NCBI GenBank assembly: GCA_017431945.1
Contig: JAFRJZ010000008.1
Coordinates: 1-43,877 of the forward strand
DNA length: 43,877 bases
DNA from: Candidatus Saccharimonadota bacterium
GTDB lineage: Bacteria > Patescibacteriota > Saccharimonadia > Saccharimonadales > Saccharimonadaceae
Reading direction: 5' to 3'
Shown here piece after piece: positions 4,349 to 30,467 of this stretch. Within the stretch, counting starts at the first letter, position 1; each line of letters starts with the position of its first letter. The notes beneath the pieces were generated by a model. It worked only from the letters and a program-made list of their open reading frames with translations. It searched no databases and was not told the DNA's origin. A program made the translations under genes and the position numbers.

Positions 4349-5278
4349 TTAATCGGTTTCGGAGTGAAATTTTTCGTGGACTTCGCGAAGGTGGGGGTCG
4401 GTAACGTGGGTGTAAATCTGGGTGGTACTGATATTGGAGTGACCGAGGAGGGCCTGAACAGAGCGGAGATCGGCGCCGTTCATGAGGAGATCAGTAGCAA
4501 AGCTGTGACGCAGAGTGTGAGGAGTGACATGTTTGGTGATGCCGGCAGAGCGGGCGTATTTTTCAACAATACGTTCAACGCTACGAGGGGTAATACGGCG
4601 AAAATCGCCACTAACATCTAAATCGTTAGTATGCTGGCTGTTGTTGAGAAAGAGAGCAGGGAGGGAGTCGGTGCGGGCGTCGAGGTAATCTTTGACGCGG
4701 TCGGCGGCGGCTTGACTGATGAAGATAGGGCGGTCTTTGCTGCCTTTACCACGCACCATAAACTCGCGACGATTGAGATTAATAGAATCGCGGTTGAGGT
4801 TAGTGAGTTCAGAGACGCGGAGGCCGCCAGAATATAGAAGTTCAATAATGGCGCGGTCGCGAAGGCCGTTTTCATCGTCCAGGGGGATTTGGTTGAGCAT
4901 TCTTTGAACTTCGTCGTAATGGAGGAAGGTAACTTGTTTGCGGGCGGCCTTGGGGATATCTACGAGGACGGGATTAAGACTTTTGATGTCGCGACGAGAG
5001 AGGTAGGTGAGAAAACCACGCAAGGCAATAAGATGATAAGACTGGGTGATGACGGAGAGACCTTGGCCATTGGTTTTGAGTCGGTTGAGGCGGAGGCGGT
5101 ATTTACGCAGGAGCTCGAGATCAATATCGGCTGGTTTTAACTCTTTGTTGGTAATTTCACTGGTGATTTCGTAGAAACGGTTGAGGTAAAGGCGATAATT
5201 TTCAATGGTACGAGTGGAGCGACCCTTTTCAATCTCTAAGTGTTCAAGAAAATCTTCTATTAAATCCGATACATACAT
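4349..5278 (-). CDS. xerD: Tyrosine recombinase, XerC/XerD type
   Basis: Site-specific recombinase of 309 aa. The N-terminal SAM-like core-binding domain spans about 1-105 and the catalytic domain about 115-305. Catalytic residues are all visible: R154 (GGLRVSEL), K178 (GKGSKDR), H254 and R257 (HTLRHSF), H280 (LLGHSN) and the nucleophile Y289 (QIYTHV). Length and the HTLRHSF/LGH pattern fit housekeeping Xer proteins for chromosome dimer resolution, and only one Xer is seen here. It stands alone, convergent with pilD and divergent from ndk. It could also serve the integrated island at 34.5 kb, which carries no integrase of its own; that is speculation. A GATAAT -10 lies 8 nt before the ATG. 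Confidence 0.9.
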   Translation of the reverse strand: MYVSDLIEDFLEHLEIEKGRSTRTIENYRLYLNRFYEITSEITNKELKPADIDLELLRKYRLRLNRLKTNGQGLSVITQSYHLIALRGFLTYLSRRDIKSLNPVLVDIPKAARKQVTFLHYDEVQRMLNQIPLDDENGLRDRAIIELLYSGGLRVSELTNLNRDSINLNRREFMVRGKGSKDRPIFISQAAADRVKDYLDARTDSLPALFLNNSQHTNDLDVSGDFRRITPRSVERIVEKYARSAGITKHVTPHTLRHSFATDLLMNGADLRSVQALLGHSNISTTQIYTHVTDPHLREVHEKFHSETD

Positions 5279-5860: not shown

Positions 5861-5936
5861 TGGTGACCCGGGTGCGAGTCGAACGCACAACCTTCTCCTT
5901 AGGACGGAGCTGCTCTATCCATTGAGCTACCAGGCC
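5861..5936 (-). tRNA. tRNA-Arg(CCT)
   Basis: On the minus strand the acceptor GGCCTGG pairs with CCGGGTC, with D arm GCTC/GAGC, anticodon loop GTCCTAA (anticodon CCT, reads AGG) and T loop TTCGACT. CCA is encoded. Its 3' end lies 4 nt beyond the ndk stop. Confidence 0.93.
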
Positions 5937-5960
5937 ATGGGTTTATTATATCATATTAAA

Positions 5961-6060
5961 GGGGGCGAATTAAGCGAATGCGTGTCCTTCGGACACGCTC
6001 CGGGCCGCTCTGGCCAAGTCTTTATGTTCCGAAAGACACATATTCGCTTAATTCGCTCCC
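5961..6060. repeat. 100-bp cloverleaf-like palindrome
   Basis: A 20-bp outer stem (5961-5980 with 6041-6060, two G-U wobbles, no mismatch) encloses three hairpins: GCGTGTC/GACACGC at 5980-5998 with loop CTTCG (sharing the junction base), GGCC/GGCC at 6003-6015, and GTCTTT/AAAGAC at 6018-6037. It is not a tRNA: there is no T loop, anticodon arm or CCA. Its right arm runs into the promoter region of the gene at 6081. It may be a structured RNA, a small non-autonomous palindromic element, or a boundary element. Confidence 0.75.
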
Positions 6061-6080
6061 TGGTGTGGTATAATTAAGGT

Positions 6081-6569
6081 ATGAGTAGGACTCAATTTGA
6101 TGGGCAACGCGAGGGGGAAGGATTGGAGTTTGTTTTTCGTAAGCATATGGTGACGACGCGAAAGGGAATGTTTTTCTTGATAGTGATTGCAGTGTTGGGG
6201 TTTTTGCCGATGGTGATATGGCCGGAACAGTCTAATATACTGTTTTGGGTGTTTGTAGGGGCGCTAGCAATAGGATTTTTGAAATTATTATATGATTATA
6301 TGCTGTGGTATTTTTCGGTGTATATAGTGACGAATCAGCGGATTCGACAGGTGAGCCAGAGAGGACTATTTAAGAAAACAGTAGTGGACTTGGGGCTAGA
6401 TAAGATACAAACGGTGTCGTATAATATTCCGGGGCTGTTTGGTGGAATGTTTGGTTATGGGACTTTGGTGATTCAAACGCAAGTAGGAGATATGGTGGTG
6501 AGTACGGTATCAAAACCAGAGAAGATTTATAATAAATTACAAGATGTAATAGGAGAGAATAATGGCTAA
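6081..6569 (+). CDS. Membrane protein with bacterial PH (YdbS/YdbT-like) domain
   Basis: 162 aa. Two hydrophobic helices (about 29-47 and 53-75) are followed by a bPH2-type domain beginning at YIVTNQRIRQVSQRGLFKK, the classic start of this fold, and running through GTLVIQTQ to the C-terminus. The family is widespread in Gram-positives and CPR; its biochemical role is not established, and lipid or protein binding at the membrane is presumed. TATAAT at 6069-6074 lies 6 nt before the ATG (leaderless). The last 8 nt overlap the next gene, so the two are co-expressed. A paralogue with the same layout is at 32692. Confidence 0.8.
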   Translation: MSRTQFDGQREGEGLEFVFRKHMVTTRKGMFFLIVIAVLGFLPMVIWPEQSNILFWVFVGALAIGFLKLLYDYMLWYFSVYIVTNQRIRQVSQRGLFKKTVVDLGLDKIQTVSYNIPGLFGGMFGYGTLVIQTQVGDMVVSTVSKPEKIYNKLQDVIGENNG

Positions 6570-22456: not shown

Positions 22457-24895
22457 ATGAAACGGTTAGTTATAATTGATGGGAAATCGGTGTTTTATCG
22501 GGGGTATTACGCGATGGGAAATTTGTCGCTTGCGGATGGTACGCCAACTGGCGGCGTGTATGGGTTTGCGGCGATTGCGATGGAAATTGTGAAGGATTTG
22601 AAGCCAGATAAAGTAGTGGTGGCATGGGATGCGAAGAATTCAACCGCGAAGCGCAAAGAACTATATCCGGAATATAAAGCGGGGCGGGTGAAGCCAGGGG
22701 AAGATTTTTATGCGCAGATACCGCTATTAGTAGAGTTAGTGGAGGGGTTAGGGTGGAGTTTTGTGGAGTGTGATGAGTATGAAGCAGACGACATCATTGG
22801 CGCGTTAGCTAAGCAAGCCGACGATGCATTGGAGTGGGAGACTTATATTATCTCGTCTGATTTGGATATGCTGCAGATTGTGGACGAGAATACGCGGATG
22901 TACCGAATACTGAAAGGGTTTAGCAAGCTGGAAGAGCTTGATGTGCCAGCGGTGGAGGCAAAGTATGGGATTAAAAAATCGCAATTTTTGGATTTGAAAG
23001 CACTGAAAGGCGATGCGTCGGATAATATTCCAGGGGTGCCGGGAATTGGTGAGAAGGGGGCGGCAAAATTATTGAATGAATACGGTAGTTTAGATGGAAT
23101 ATATGAGCATGTGGATGAGATAAAGGGTTCAGTAGGAGAGAAATTGAGAGCTGGTAAGGAAAGCGCGTATTTGTCATATAAGTTAGCGAAGATCATGGAG
23201 GATGCGCCGGTGGAGCTTTCTGAGATACCGGAATTTGAATATGATCCAGTGAAGACGAAGGAAGCACTAGAAAAGTTGGAATTTAGATCGTTGATACGAC
23301 GATTTGGGTTAGATAAGGAGGTTTCATCTGATAATTCTCGACACGCTGCGTCGCGCCTGTCTTCACAGGGCTCCTCGCTAACTCGCTCCCAGCCGGTCGC
23401 GAAATGTCTCGAATTACCAGATAAAACCTCCCCGTCGGGCGCAAAATATCTCGAATCATCTAGTGAAACTTCTTCTTCTCTTATTATTGAGTGGGATGTG
23501 AAGGGGAAGATGCATAAGGATGAGAAAGTAGCGGAGAAGATTTTGGCGGGGGCGGAGTTTTGGGATTTGGAGCAGGGAAGGTTTTTGTTGAATCCGCTGA
23601 CGAGGAAGGACGAACATCCGCAAGGCGATAAGATGGTGGAGTACCAGAGACAACAGCAAGAATTTGTGAAACAACCAAAGTTAAAAAAGATTTTGACGGA
23701 GTTTGATTTACCCCTGATACCGGTGCTTTATAAGATGGAAAAGCAGGGGATGTTGATAGATAAGAAGTATTTTAATGAATTGAAGCAAGAATTTGAACAG
23801 CAAGTGACAAAAATTGAACAAGAAATTTGGCGTCAAGCGGGCGGAGAGTTTAATGTGAATTCACCGATACAGCTGTCGGAGGTGCTGTTTGGTAGGTTAG
23901 GGTTGCCGACGAAGGGAGTGAAGAAGACTCAGCGGGGCTATTCAACAGGGGCGAAAGAGCTGGCGAAGCTGAAAGGCCAACACCCGATAATACCGCTGAT
24001 AATGGAATATCGGGAGGTGGCGAAATTGCTATCTACCTATGTGTTACCGTTTCCGGATTTGGCGGATGCAAAGGGACGGGTTCACACGACTTTTACGCAA
24101 AATGTGACGGCGACTGGAAGATTGTCGAGCCTGAACCCGAATTTACAGAATATTCCGGTGCGAACAGAGGAAGGGAAGCGAATTAGGACTGGATTTGTGG
24201 TGCTGAAAGGCAATAAAATGGTGTCGGCGGACTATTCGCAGTTTGAACTGAGGTTGGCAGCGGTATTGGCGGGTGACGAGAAATTGATGGCAGATTTCAA
24301 CGCGGGGATTGATATTCATACCAAGACGGCATCAGAAGTATTTAAGGTGCCGATGACTGAGGTGACGAAACGGCAACGCCGAGTGGCGAAGGTGGTGAAC
24401 TTTGGGGTGCTATATGGGATGAGTGCAAAAGGACTGGCAGATGCAACAGGGATGAGCGTAGCGGAAGCGAAGAGTTTTATAGAGGGATATTTTGAATTGA
24501 GGCGACCGATTAAGGAATATCTGGAAAGGATTTTACAGCAGGCGCGCGAACAGGGGTATGTAGAGACTTATTTTGGCAGGAAGCGCCCGACACCAGATGT
24601 GAAATCGCCGAATTTCTTGATTAGAACAGGGGCGGAGCGAGCGGCGCAAAATATGCCGATTCAGGGAACGGAGGCGGATTTGATGAAGCGAGCGATGATT
24701 AGGATGAATAAGGTGTTACCAGAGGGAGCGAAACTGGTAATGCAGGTACATGATTCGCTGATGGTGGAGTGTGATGAAGATTTAGTAACAGAGGTGAAGA
24801 AAATGCTAGTGAAGGAGATGGAAGGAGTGGCGCCAGAGTTGAAAGTAAAACTGTTAGTAGAGGTGAAGGTGGGAGATAACTGGGGGGAGGTGTAG
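22457..24895 (+). CDS. polA: DNA polymerase I with an inserted palindromic-element peptide
   Basis: 812 aa. The 5'-nuclease domain (about 1-280) has its metal-binding motifs (DGKSVFYRGYYA, YEADDIIG, SSDLDML, GDASDNIPGVPGIG). Residues about 288-340 are an insert (SRHAASRL, LTRSQPVAKC, LELPDKTSPSGAKYLE) encoded by a palindromic element shared with mutM. The 3'-5' exonuclease domain is reduced to a remnant (about 342-420) without the acidic active site, so no proofreading is expected. Polymerase motif A is SADYSQFELRLA, the O helix is KVVNFGVLYGMSAKGL, and motif C reads VMQVHDSLMVE, with Ser in place of the usual Glu after the Asp. Promoter TTGCTC/TATACT, 6 nt before the ATG. mutM follows with no gap. 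Confidence 0.95.
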   Translation: MKRLVIIDGKSVFYRGYYAMGNLSLADGTPTGGVYGFAAIAMEIVKDLKPDKVVVAWDAKNSTAKRKELYPEYKAGRVKPGEDFYAQIPLLVELVEGLGWSFVECDEYEADDIIGALAKQADDALEWETYIISSDLDMLQIVDENTRMYRILKGFSKLEELDVPAVEAKYGIKKSQFLDLKALKGDASDNIPGVPGIGEKGAAKLLNEYGSLDGIYEHVDEIKGSVGEKLRAGKESAYLSYKLAKIMEDAPVELSEIPEFEYDPVKTKEALEKLEFRSLIRRFGLDKEVSSDNSRHAASRLSSQGSSLTRSQPVAKCLELPDKTSPSGAKYLESSSETSSSLIIEWDVKGKMHKDEKVAEKILAGAEFWDLEQGRFLLNPLTRKDEHPQGDKMVEYQRQQQEFVKQPKLKKILTEFDLPLIPVLYKMEKQGMLIDKKYFNELKQEFEQQVTKIEQEIWRQAGGEFNVNSPIQLSEVLFGRLGLPTKGVKKTQRGYSTGAKELAKLKGQHPIIPLIMEYREVAKLLSTYVLPFPDLADAKGRVHTTFTQNVTATGRLSSLNPNLQNIPVRTEEGKRIRTGFVVLKGNKMVSADYSQFELRLAAVLAGDEKLMADFNAGIDIHTKTASEVFKVPMTEVTKRQRRVAKVVNFGVLYGMSAKGLADATGMSVAEAKSFIEGYFELRRPIKEYLERILQQAREQGYVETYFGRKRPTPDVKSPNFLIRTGAERAAQNMPIQGTEADLMKRAMIRMNKVLPEGAKLVMQVHDSLMVECDEDLVTEVKKMLVKEMEGVAPELKVKLLVEVKVGDNWGEV
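23317..23431 (+). repeat. Palindromic coding element, polA copy
   Basis: Terminal arms of 21 nt (23317-23337 and 23411-23431) are inverted repeats with two mismatches. Inside are GACA/TGTC (next to the arms), TCGCG/CGCGA (23351-23355 with 23398-23402) and hairpin CCTGT-CTTC-ACAGG (23356-23369). The element is read in frame through polA. The homologous 107-bp segment 23321-23427 aligns without gaps to 25004-25110 in mutM. A partial copy of the downstream 42-bp unit continues to about 23475. Confidence 0.9.
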
Positions 24896-25927
24896 ATGCC
24901 GGAGTTGCCAGAGGTGGAGACGGTACGCAGGGGGCTCAAGAAGTATATTTTGAATAAAAAAATTATTCGAATCGTCGTCTTTGAAGATAAGTCGTTCAAG
25001 GACGCTTTACCTGATGATTCTCGGCACGCTTCGTCGCGCCCGTCTTCACGGGGCTCCTCGCTAACTCGCTCCCAGCCGGTCGCGAAATGCCTCGAATCAT
25101 CAGATAAAGCTCCCCGGCTGGGTGCAAAATACCTCAAATTACCAGATGAAACTTCCCAATCAGGTGCAAAATACCTTGAATTACCAGATAAAACCATCCA
25201 GGGTTTGAAGCGGTTTGGGAAGGCGTTGGTGATTGATCTTGATGATGGGTGTTCGCTAATGATACATTTAAGGATGACAGGACAGTTGATTTGGCGGGGT
25301 GAAACGGGAGAGTTTGCGGCGGGACACCCCAGTGAAAATTTTGTGGCGGAACTGCCTAATAAGCAGACAAGAGTGGTGTTTGAATTTGAGGATGGTAAAT
25401 TGTTTTTTAACGATCAGAGGAAGTTTGGGTTTGTGAAATTAATGCCGACAACAGAGGTGGAGAAGGATGCGTTTATTAAAAAATTAGGACCGGAGCCATG
25501 GGAAATGAGCGAAAATGAGCTCTACGAGCGTTGCCAGAGACACGGAAAGGCGCTAATAAAGGCGGTGCTGCTAAATCAGGAGGTGATAGCGGGGCTAGGG
25601 AATATCTACGCAGATGAAGCGTTATTTGCGGCAGGAGTGCATCCTGAACGGAGGGCGGGGAGCCTGACTAAAACAGAGGTGACGAAGATTTTAGCAGGGG
25701 CGAAAAAAGTAATGAAATCAGCAATTGAGGCGGGTGGTAGTACGATGGCGACCTATGTGAAAGCGGATGGCACCAGGGGTAATTATTTGGATGAATTTGC
25801 GCAGGTGTTTGGTAAACAGGGGCAGGAATGCCCGAAATGTGGTGCGGAAATCGTAAAAATACGAGTGGCAGGGCGTGGAACGCATATCTGTCCGCACTGT
25901 CAACAGAAAGGGAAGAAAAATGATTAA
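24896..25927 (+). CDS. mutM: Formamidopyrimidine-DNA glycosylase with an inserted palindromic-element peptide
   Basis: Removes oxidised purines (8-oxoG, FapyG) and nicks the DNA. 343 aa against about 270-290 usually. The N-terminal PELPEVETVRRGL supplies the catalytic Pro2 and Glu3. Residues about 37-100 are an insert (SRHASSRP, LTRSQPVAKC, then KYLKLPDETSQSGA and KYLELPDKT units) that interrupts the N-terminal beta-sandwich before QGLKRFGKALVIDL, where normal proteins have a short loop. The H2TH region is present (NQEVIAGLGNIYADEAL), and the C-terminal zinc finger has CPKC and CPHC pairs. The ATG follows the polA stop directly (TAGATG), so translation is coupled, and holA overlaps the end. 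Insert aside, the enzyme looks intact. Confidence 0.94.
   Translation: MPELPEVETVRRGLKKYILNKKIIRIVVFEDKSFKDALPDDSRHASSRPSSRGSSLTRSQPVAKCLESSDKAPRLGAKYLKLPDETSQSGAKYLELPDKTIQGLKRFGKALVIDLDDGCSLMIHLRMTGQLIWRGETGEFAAGHPSENFVAELPNKQTRVVFEFEDGKLFFNDQRKFGFVKLMPTTEVEKDAFIKKLGPEPWEMSENELYERCQRHGKALIKAVLLNQEVIAGLGNIYADEALFAAGVHPERRAGSLTKTEVTKILAGAKKVMKSAIEAGGSTMATYVKADGTRGNYLDEFAQVFGKQGQECPKCGAEIVKIRVAGRGTHICPHCQQKGKKND
25004..25110 (+). repeat. Palindromic coding element, mutM copy
   Basis: The 17-nt arms 25004-25020 (GCTTTACCTGATGATTC) and 25094-25110 (GAATCATCAGATAAAGC) are inverted repeats with one mismatch. Internal pairs are GGCA/TGCC, TCGCG/CGCGA and hairpin CCCGT-CTTC-ACGGG (25039-25052). It is 107 bp like the polA copy. 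Differences from that copy are largely paired (T-A for C-G in the arms, GACA/TGTC for GGCA/TGCC, CCTGT/ACAGG for CCCGT/ACGGG). Confidence 0.9.
25094..25194 (+). repeat. 42-bp tandem units (14-aa repeat) in mutM
   Basis: The arm-like 17-mer recurs at 25094, 25136 and 25178, exactly 42 bp apart, encoding repeats related to KYLELPDKTSPSGA. The unit looks like a duplicated right arm plus a short GC hairpin. polA has the same unit once, with a degenerate second copy. Confidence 0.85.
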
Positions 25928-30357: not shown

Positions 30358-30382
30358 GAGGAGATATTGATGTTAGGTAAAA

Positions 30383-30453
30383 TGTTACCGCAGGGCAGTT
30401 TGATTGATTATGCGTTTCAGAGAATACAGGGAGTTTTGGGCCCTGCGGTAACA
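30383..30453. repeat. 14-bp perfect inverted repeat around a 43-nt loop
   Basis: TGTTACCGCAGGGC (30383-30396) and GCCCTGCGGTAACA (30440-30453) are exact inverted repeats. They lie between the rpsO terminator and the 3' end of the minus-strand 30468 gene. No T run follows on either side, so it is not an ordinary terminator. It could protect mRNA 3' ends or be a small mobile repeat. Confidence 0.7.
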
Positions 30454-30467
30454 CTTAATTGCTTATT

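Follow-up and report, generated by a model that had tools for sequence, protein, structure and literature searches.

The palindrome at 5961–6060 of the window (the whole 43,877-nucleotide stretch of Candidatus Saccharimonadota DNA that was analysed) is probably a copy of a mobile repeat of about 100 bp that is palindromic, non-coding and selfish. On the best reading, reached by analogy, this repeat would behave like the palindromic elements of Rickettsia, although it is built differently. The conserved part of the copies is the apex only (CGCTCCGGGCCGCTnGGCCAAGTCTTAC), about 25–30 nt, and its conservation is overstated and partly a matter of ascertainment, as most copies were gathered by an exact core pattern. 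Most stems, when the copies are folded, consist of locus-specific sequence that is paired with itself.

Structure and setting of the palindrome

The closing stem is confirmed (Table 1), and no inverted repeat listed for the 43.9-kb window is longer than this palindrome. The fold of 5951–6070 reaches −64 kcal/mol, compared with −32.3 ± 3.6 for 200 dinucleotide shuffles (z = −8.9), which bears out the initial annotation of a real palindrome far beyond chance. Its description as non-coding and as something other than a tRNA also holds: the element lies outside every ORF of at least 90 amino acids, and a tRNA or a known cloverleaf RNA is rejected, as ARAGORN finds no tRNA and Rfam gives no match at the gathering threshold (at E ≤ 5 only mir-86 matches appear, far below threshold).

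Table 1. Positions of the element and its parts, of the neighbouring features and of the second repeat family in the window.
Feature	Position	Strand	Basis or remark
tRNA-Arg (CCT), neighbour	5861–5936	−	ARAGORN, Rfam
Predicted extended −10 (TGATATAAT) upstream of tRNA-Arg, immediately beyond the left foot	5945–5953	−	Read from sequence
Closing stem, left arm (locus-specific)	5961–5980	+	Pairs with 6041–6060; other sequence in most copies
Whole element (family 1, type A)	5962–6059	+	96% identity to G000:C10:11792-11889, flanks unrelated; palindrome
Apical hairpin H1 (GCGTGTCC-TTC-GGACACGC)	5980–5998	+	Alternative partner 6024–6040
Conserved core CTCC-G-GGCC-GCTCT-GGCC-AAGTCTT, includes H2	5997–6023	+	Common to Patescibacteria and Bifidobacterium copies
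Hairpin H2 (GGCC-GCTCT-GGCC)	6003–6015	+	Within the core
Third hairpin of the four-way form (GTCTTT...AAAGAC)	6018–6037	+	Constrained fold
Closing stem, right arm	6041–6060	+	Between-copy changes matched in the left arm
Predicted extended −10 (TGGTATAAT) of a leaderless ORF (ATG at 6081), just outside the right foot	6066–6074	+	Read from sequence
Family-2 palindromic insert inside polA	23315–23472	+	85% identity to the mutM copy
Family-2 palindromic insert inside mutM	24998–25155	+	Same plan, other family than the 5962–6059 element

The cloverleaf of the initial annotation stands in part: its three internal hairpins can form, but the two possible forms compete by their fold energies, so that the cloverleaf is only one of two conformations. 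With RNA parameters, the long stem with its apical hairpin is slightly more stable than the four-way form on the + strand (−58.9 vs −57.6), the strand with CTCCGGGCCGCT...GGCCAAGTCTT at its apex, and clearly more stable on the − strand (−59.6 vs −52.2), while with DNA parameters the four-way form is the minimum on both strands. The folding models thus indicate that the element can isomerise between a long stem and a four-way junction. H1 is found only in Saccharibacteria, in copies of type A.

The nearest copy in the window's own genome matches over 98 bp, which is almost exactly the palindrome, and both flanks are unrelated, so that the repeat unit is approximately 5962–6059. The ends of the window copy read GGGGGCG/CGCTCCC. 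An extended −10 motif on each side, on opposite strands, places the element between two divergent promoters, both predicted. The initial annotation had proposed a leaderless promoter with its −35 region in the right arm of the palindrome; the extended −10 before the ATG at 6081 is in place, but no acceptable −35 is detected by the scan. Among the intergenic copies convergent genes predominate over divergent ones (23 vs 4, by rough ORF calls), and the window copy, flanked by divergent promoters, belongs to the rarer class. A syntenic empty site for it was not found in relatives because the gene order around tRNA-Arg differs there.

The window also contains two palindromic inserts in polA and mutM, whose element the order of hairpins was initially said to recall. 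The architecture is indeed the same, but the polA/mutM palindrome is a separate family (family 2), with a conserved tip of its own (CGCGCCCGTCKTYACGGGGCTC) and locus-specific paired arms, and is present in 10 of the 24 genomes searched. Both families follow a common plan, a hairpin, GCTC(C) and further hairpins, with a conserved apex and locus-specific arms, and this shared order suggests common descent. Another long inverted repeat, of different sequence, is found at 30380–30456, with 17 bp arms located 43 nt apart (AAATGTTACCGCAGGGC).

Conserved apex and locus-specific stem

The stem statistics were counted directly from the copies. In Bifidobacterium (50 copies) the stem is 27 bp long and ends sharply; pairs 8–26 are paired in about 90–100% of copies, as opposed to 33–76% after the right arms are reshuffled among copies, and all four Watson-Crick types occur at most positions. 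The simple-apex copies of Patescibacteria (n=68) show the same stem pattern with more bulges. H2 has one compensated variant (GGGC/GCCC), found in copies gathered mostly by the exact core. The outer arms differ between copies, and those of Bifidobacterium keep a weak common foot. In one locus (L107 near 7396, in element orientation) the stem extends to roughly 60–70 bp with a short one-sided bulge, which recurs in L025 and L027. In another (L090 near 2482) the right half is tandemly repeated about three times, with a unit of about 43 nt that contains its own GGCT...AGCC hairpin.

Stem bases that change without pairing were named at the outset as evidence against the element; a change in one arm nearly always has its counterpart in the other. 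Comparison of the most closely related Bifidobacterium pairs gives 14 two-sided stem differences and 1 one-sided, a count over copies that are both at least 85% paired, in which the pairs are not independent of each other. Two copies of the window's own genome (C10 and C1) are distinguished by a block of 9 bp that has been exchanged in the left and the right arm alike. The orthologous copy of B. callitrichos and B. rousetti has nearly identical arms and an inverted apex (L065 802–960; L111 near 4790–4970). Template switching between inverted repeats yields matched multi-base changes and inversion of the spacer (PMC8604942). Since matched two-sided changes and apex inversion are its products, we infer that one arm templates the other, rather than that mutations are rescued pair by pair.

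An invariant apex with a freely covarying stem would also suit a functional structured RNA, or an RNA/DNA protein-binding site, selected at each locus, where the apex would bind a protein or ligand and the stem would protect or position it by compensatory pairing. In several groups A.C mismatches exceed G.T in the mid-stem; these correspond to G.U pairs on the complementary strand, and the excess hints at selection on that strand, as RNA or as single-stranded DNA. Intergenic positions are also conserved in some clades. However, the outer Bifidobacterium stem has no such bias (G.T/A.C 13 to 13), close pairs have almost no one-sided changes, unlike what stepwise compensation would produce, Rfam has no match, the presence of the element varies between close relatives, and copies are found within essential genes. 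A structured RNA or binding site is therefore rather unlikely.

Dispersal and sites of insertion

A similarity search with the element as a query in 40 related genomes detects family 1 in 12 of the 24 genomes of Candidatus Nanosyncoccus (Saccharibacteria), the window's own included. An exact-pattern scan for the apex in 84,980 species genomes yields at least 111 stretches; the hosts among the matches listed are Saccharibacteria, Parcubacteria-type bacteria, Adlerbacteria, Peregrinibacteria, metagenome-assembled genomes labelled ‘bacterium’ and Bifidobacterium/Bifidobacteriaceae. The repeat occurs in gut and groundwater Patescibacteria and in many bifidobacteria. The initial suggestion that the palindrome is intergenic and belongs to a wider palindromic family, for which a second copy in relatives was the proposed check, is thereby supported by copies in the own genome, the genus, other classes of Patescibacteria and Bifidobacterium. 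No published description of family 1 was found in the open-access literature. The distribution is patchy, with the exact core in 5 of 380 Patescibacteria genomes. Thirty carriers have from 1 to 16 exact copies each, and the reversed control pattern has 0 matches. All copies of one genome tend to have the same letter at the variable loop position of the apex, which suggests amplification inside each genome. Carriage by phages was considered and dropped, as the exact core is absent from 2.9 million IMG/VR contigs.

Mobility is supported by the copies of the own genome, the near-identity of which is limited to the palindrome. Against it, orthologous Bifidobacterium copies with an unchanged core persist (L038/L092/L116). 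In three genomes copies occupy the same intergenic place beside a tmRNA-like sequence (L114 near 1752, L121 near 424 and L146 near 3093), with unrelated arms and differing apex orientation. The persisting orthologues and the tmRNA-adjacent copies would also fit a host function. Copies with different arms at the same site (L138/L142 and the three beside tmRNA) may result from repeated insertion at permissive sites or from very fast turnover of the arms. Bifidobacterium loci L110, L254, L255, L270 and L271 contain head-to-head pairs of copies 130–300 bp apart, reminiscent of BIMEs or REPINs; an autonomous element bounded by two copies is rejected, as nothing recognisable lies between the copies in the close pairs collected.

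Many copies are located inside genes. In Patescibacteria 34 of 88 are within open frames of at least 150 codons; as this figure takes in a few later-fetched Bifidobacterium loci and possibly some spurious frames, about 30 in-gene Patescibacteria copies is a fair count. The in-frame hosts confirmed by Pfam are 10 proteins: a GatA-type amidase, TsaD, ArgRS, IleRS, UvrA, UvrB, UvrC, TatD, an FtsJ-like methyltransferase (read as TlyA) and queuine tRNA-ribosyltransferase, the last with two inserts. In-gene copies occur in both orientations and in several frames. In uvrB, one Saccharibacterium has an element of family 1, and the window's genome has one of family 2 at roughly the same position (L104 near 7457; L031 near 1500–1585).

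The homologous genes of L039, L049 and L091/L008 lack the tgt insert of L131; they show a clean junction and nothing that corresponds to its arms. An inverted target duplication is thus ruled out as the source of the whole arms at this site, and no target duplication is evident at the junction, which is compared at only about 75% identity. At L129, compared with L098, the outermost ~10 bases of the arms may come from an inverted target duplication.

Relation to known repeats and proposed mechanism

Rickettsia palindromic elements are, like the present one, short, non-coding, dispersed palindromes, many of them in-frame in genes of functional proteins (PMC3733652). Compared by description, they have other hosts, and they differ from the element, the stem of which is locus-specific with only the tip conserved. 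R. conorii RPE-4 and RPE-6 have a CGTC tag at one end; near the foot of the Bifidobacterium copies, CGTC is present in 4 of 50 and GACG in 3 of 50. By analogy the element appears to work like a Rickettsia palindromic element, which says less than membership of that group.

REP and BIME repeats are also found between convergent genes, occasionally as head-to-head pairs, and in repair genes; they carry GTAG or CGTC foot tags, the GTAG ones being tied to the RAYT transposase, and their stems are 6–9 bp as a rule (PMC3733652). The element could accordingly be pictured as a REP-type repeat that a RAYT (Y1 HUH) transposase moves and whose foot tag has degenerated, and the Bifidobacterium pairs and the Y1 genes of the Parcubacteria carriers agree with this. 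However, Y1/RAYT proteins were not found in the Nanosyncoccus and Bifidobacterium carriers searched, and Y1_Tnp is absent from 16 of 22 carriers. Foot tags are rare (GTAG in 2 and CTAC in 4 of 50 Bifidobacterium copies, besides the few with CGTC), the stems are 20–50 bp, and it is the tip, not the foot, that is conserved. Movement by a RAYT is for these reasons improbable. A reverse transcriptase was likewise rejected as the mobiliser, as only 11 of the 22 carriers have one, and the occurrence of such genes shows no link with that of the element. Two of them lie in the window's genome (G000:C11:658-1377 and G000:C7:28413-29114), and several genus-mates have 2–4.

Still less credible is that the core alone is mobile and inserts at the tips of pre-existing hairpins, the arms being native. 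A locus about 90% identical to that of G000:C17 lacks the core and keeps the outermost arms and a short tip (L106), which may equally be a deletion, while the empty tgt site has no hairpin, the copies of the window's genome share arms as well as core, and the Bifidobacterium stem is fixed at 27 bp. The least credible explanation is an ordinary terminator that stops transcription in both directions, or else an artefact of assembly or amplification. Strong hairpins between convergent genes can end transcription and whole-genome amplification can create inverted chimeras, but the long stem, unlike the GC hairpin of an intrinsic terminator, is not followed by a T-run, the terminator scan flags only the 5-bp H2 inside the element (the region holds 3 terminator-like sites vs 1.0 expected), in-frame copies lie within essential genes, and the same apex recurs in Bifidobacterium isolate genomes and many independent metagenome assemblies.

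MITEs resemble the element in being dispersed, non-coding, of about 100 bp and with inverted arms, but they have conserved terminal repeats of 15–30 bp recognised by a transposase (PMC3733652), whereas its arm ends differ from copy to copy. Template switching at short inverted repeats makes arms identical and inverts spacers as here, but there it acts on isolated native repeats (PMC8604942), whereas the element is a dispersed family with a conserved spacer.

On the preferred reading of a mobile repeat, the apex would be recognised on an extruded or single-stranded hairpin by a putative trans-acting enzyme, and the stem would need only length and pairing. Integron attC sites, marked by R boxes in the foot and by an integron integrase, likewise keep their structure rather than their sequence. 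One arm of the element would template the other, through polymerase template switching at the palindrome or through a fold-back intermediate during insertion, and by such arm-to-arm copying each lineage would drift to its own matched stem. Host selection would keep only those insertions that lie in non-coding gaps, chiefly where neighbouring genes converge, or in protein loops where the frame is left open.

More tentatively, the element may represent a cross-phylum class of mobile DNA that inherits only the tip of a hairpin, recognised by a putative enzyme, with the stem remade by fold-back copying or template switching, possibly into the flanks. If so, it would be a class of repeats recognised by the tip instead of by terminal repeats, and a family that shares only its tip across phyla would escape ordinary repeat searches. 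Template switching at long palindromes would have left a natural record in the matched, ever-changing arms. Such a class would place inserts of about 30 residues in conserved repair and translation proteins of minimal-genome organisms, and it would link the ultrasmall Patescibacteria with Bifidobacterium, via transfer or deep ancestry.
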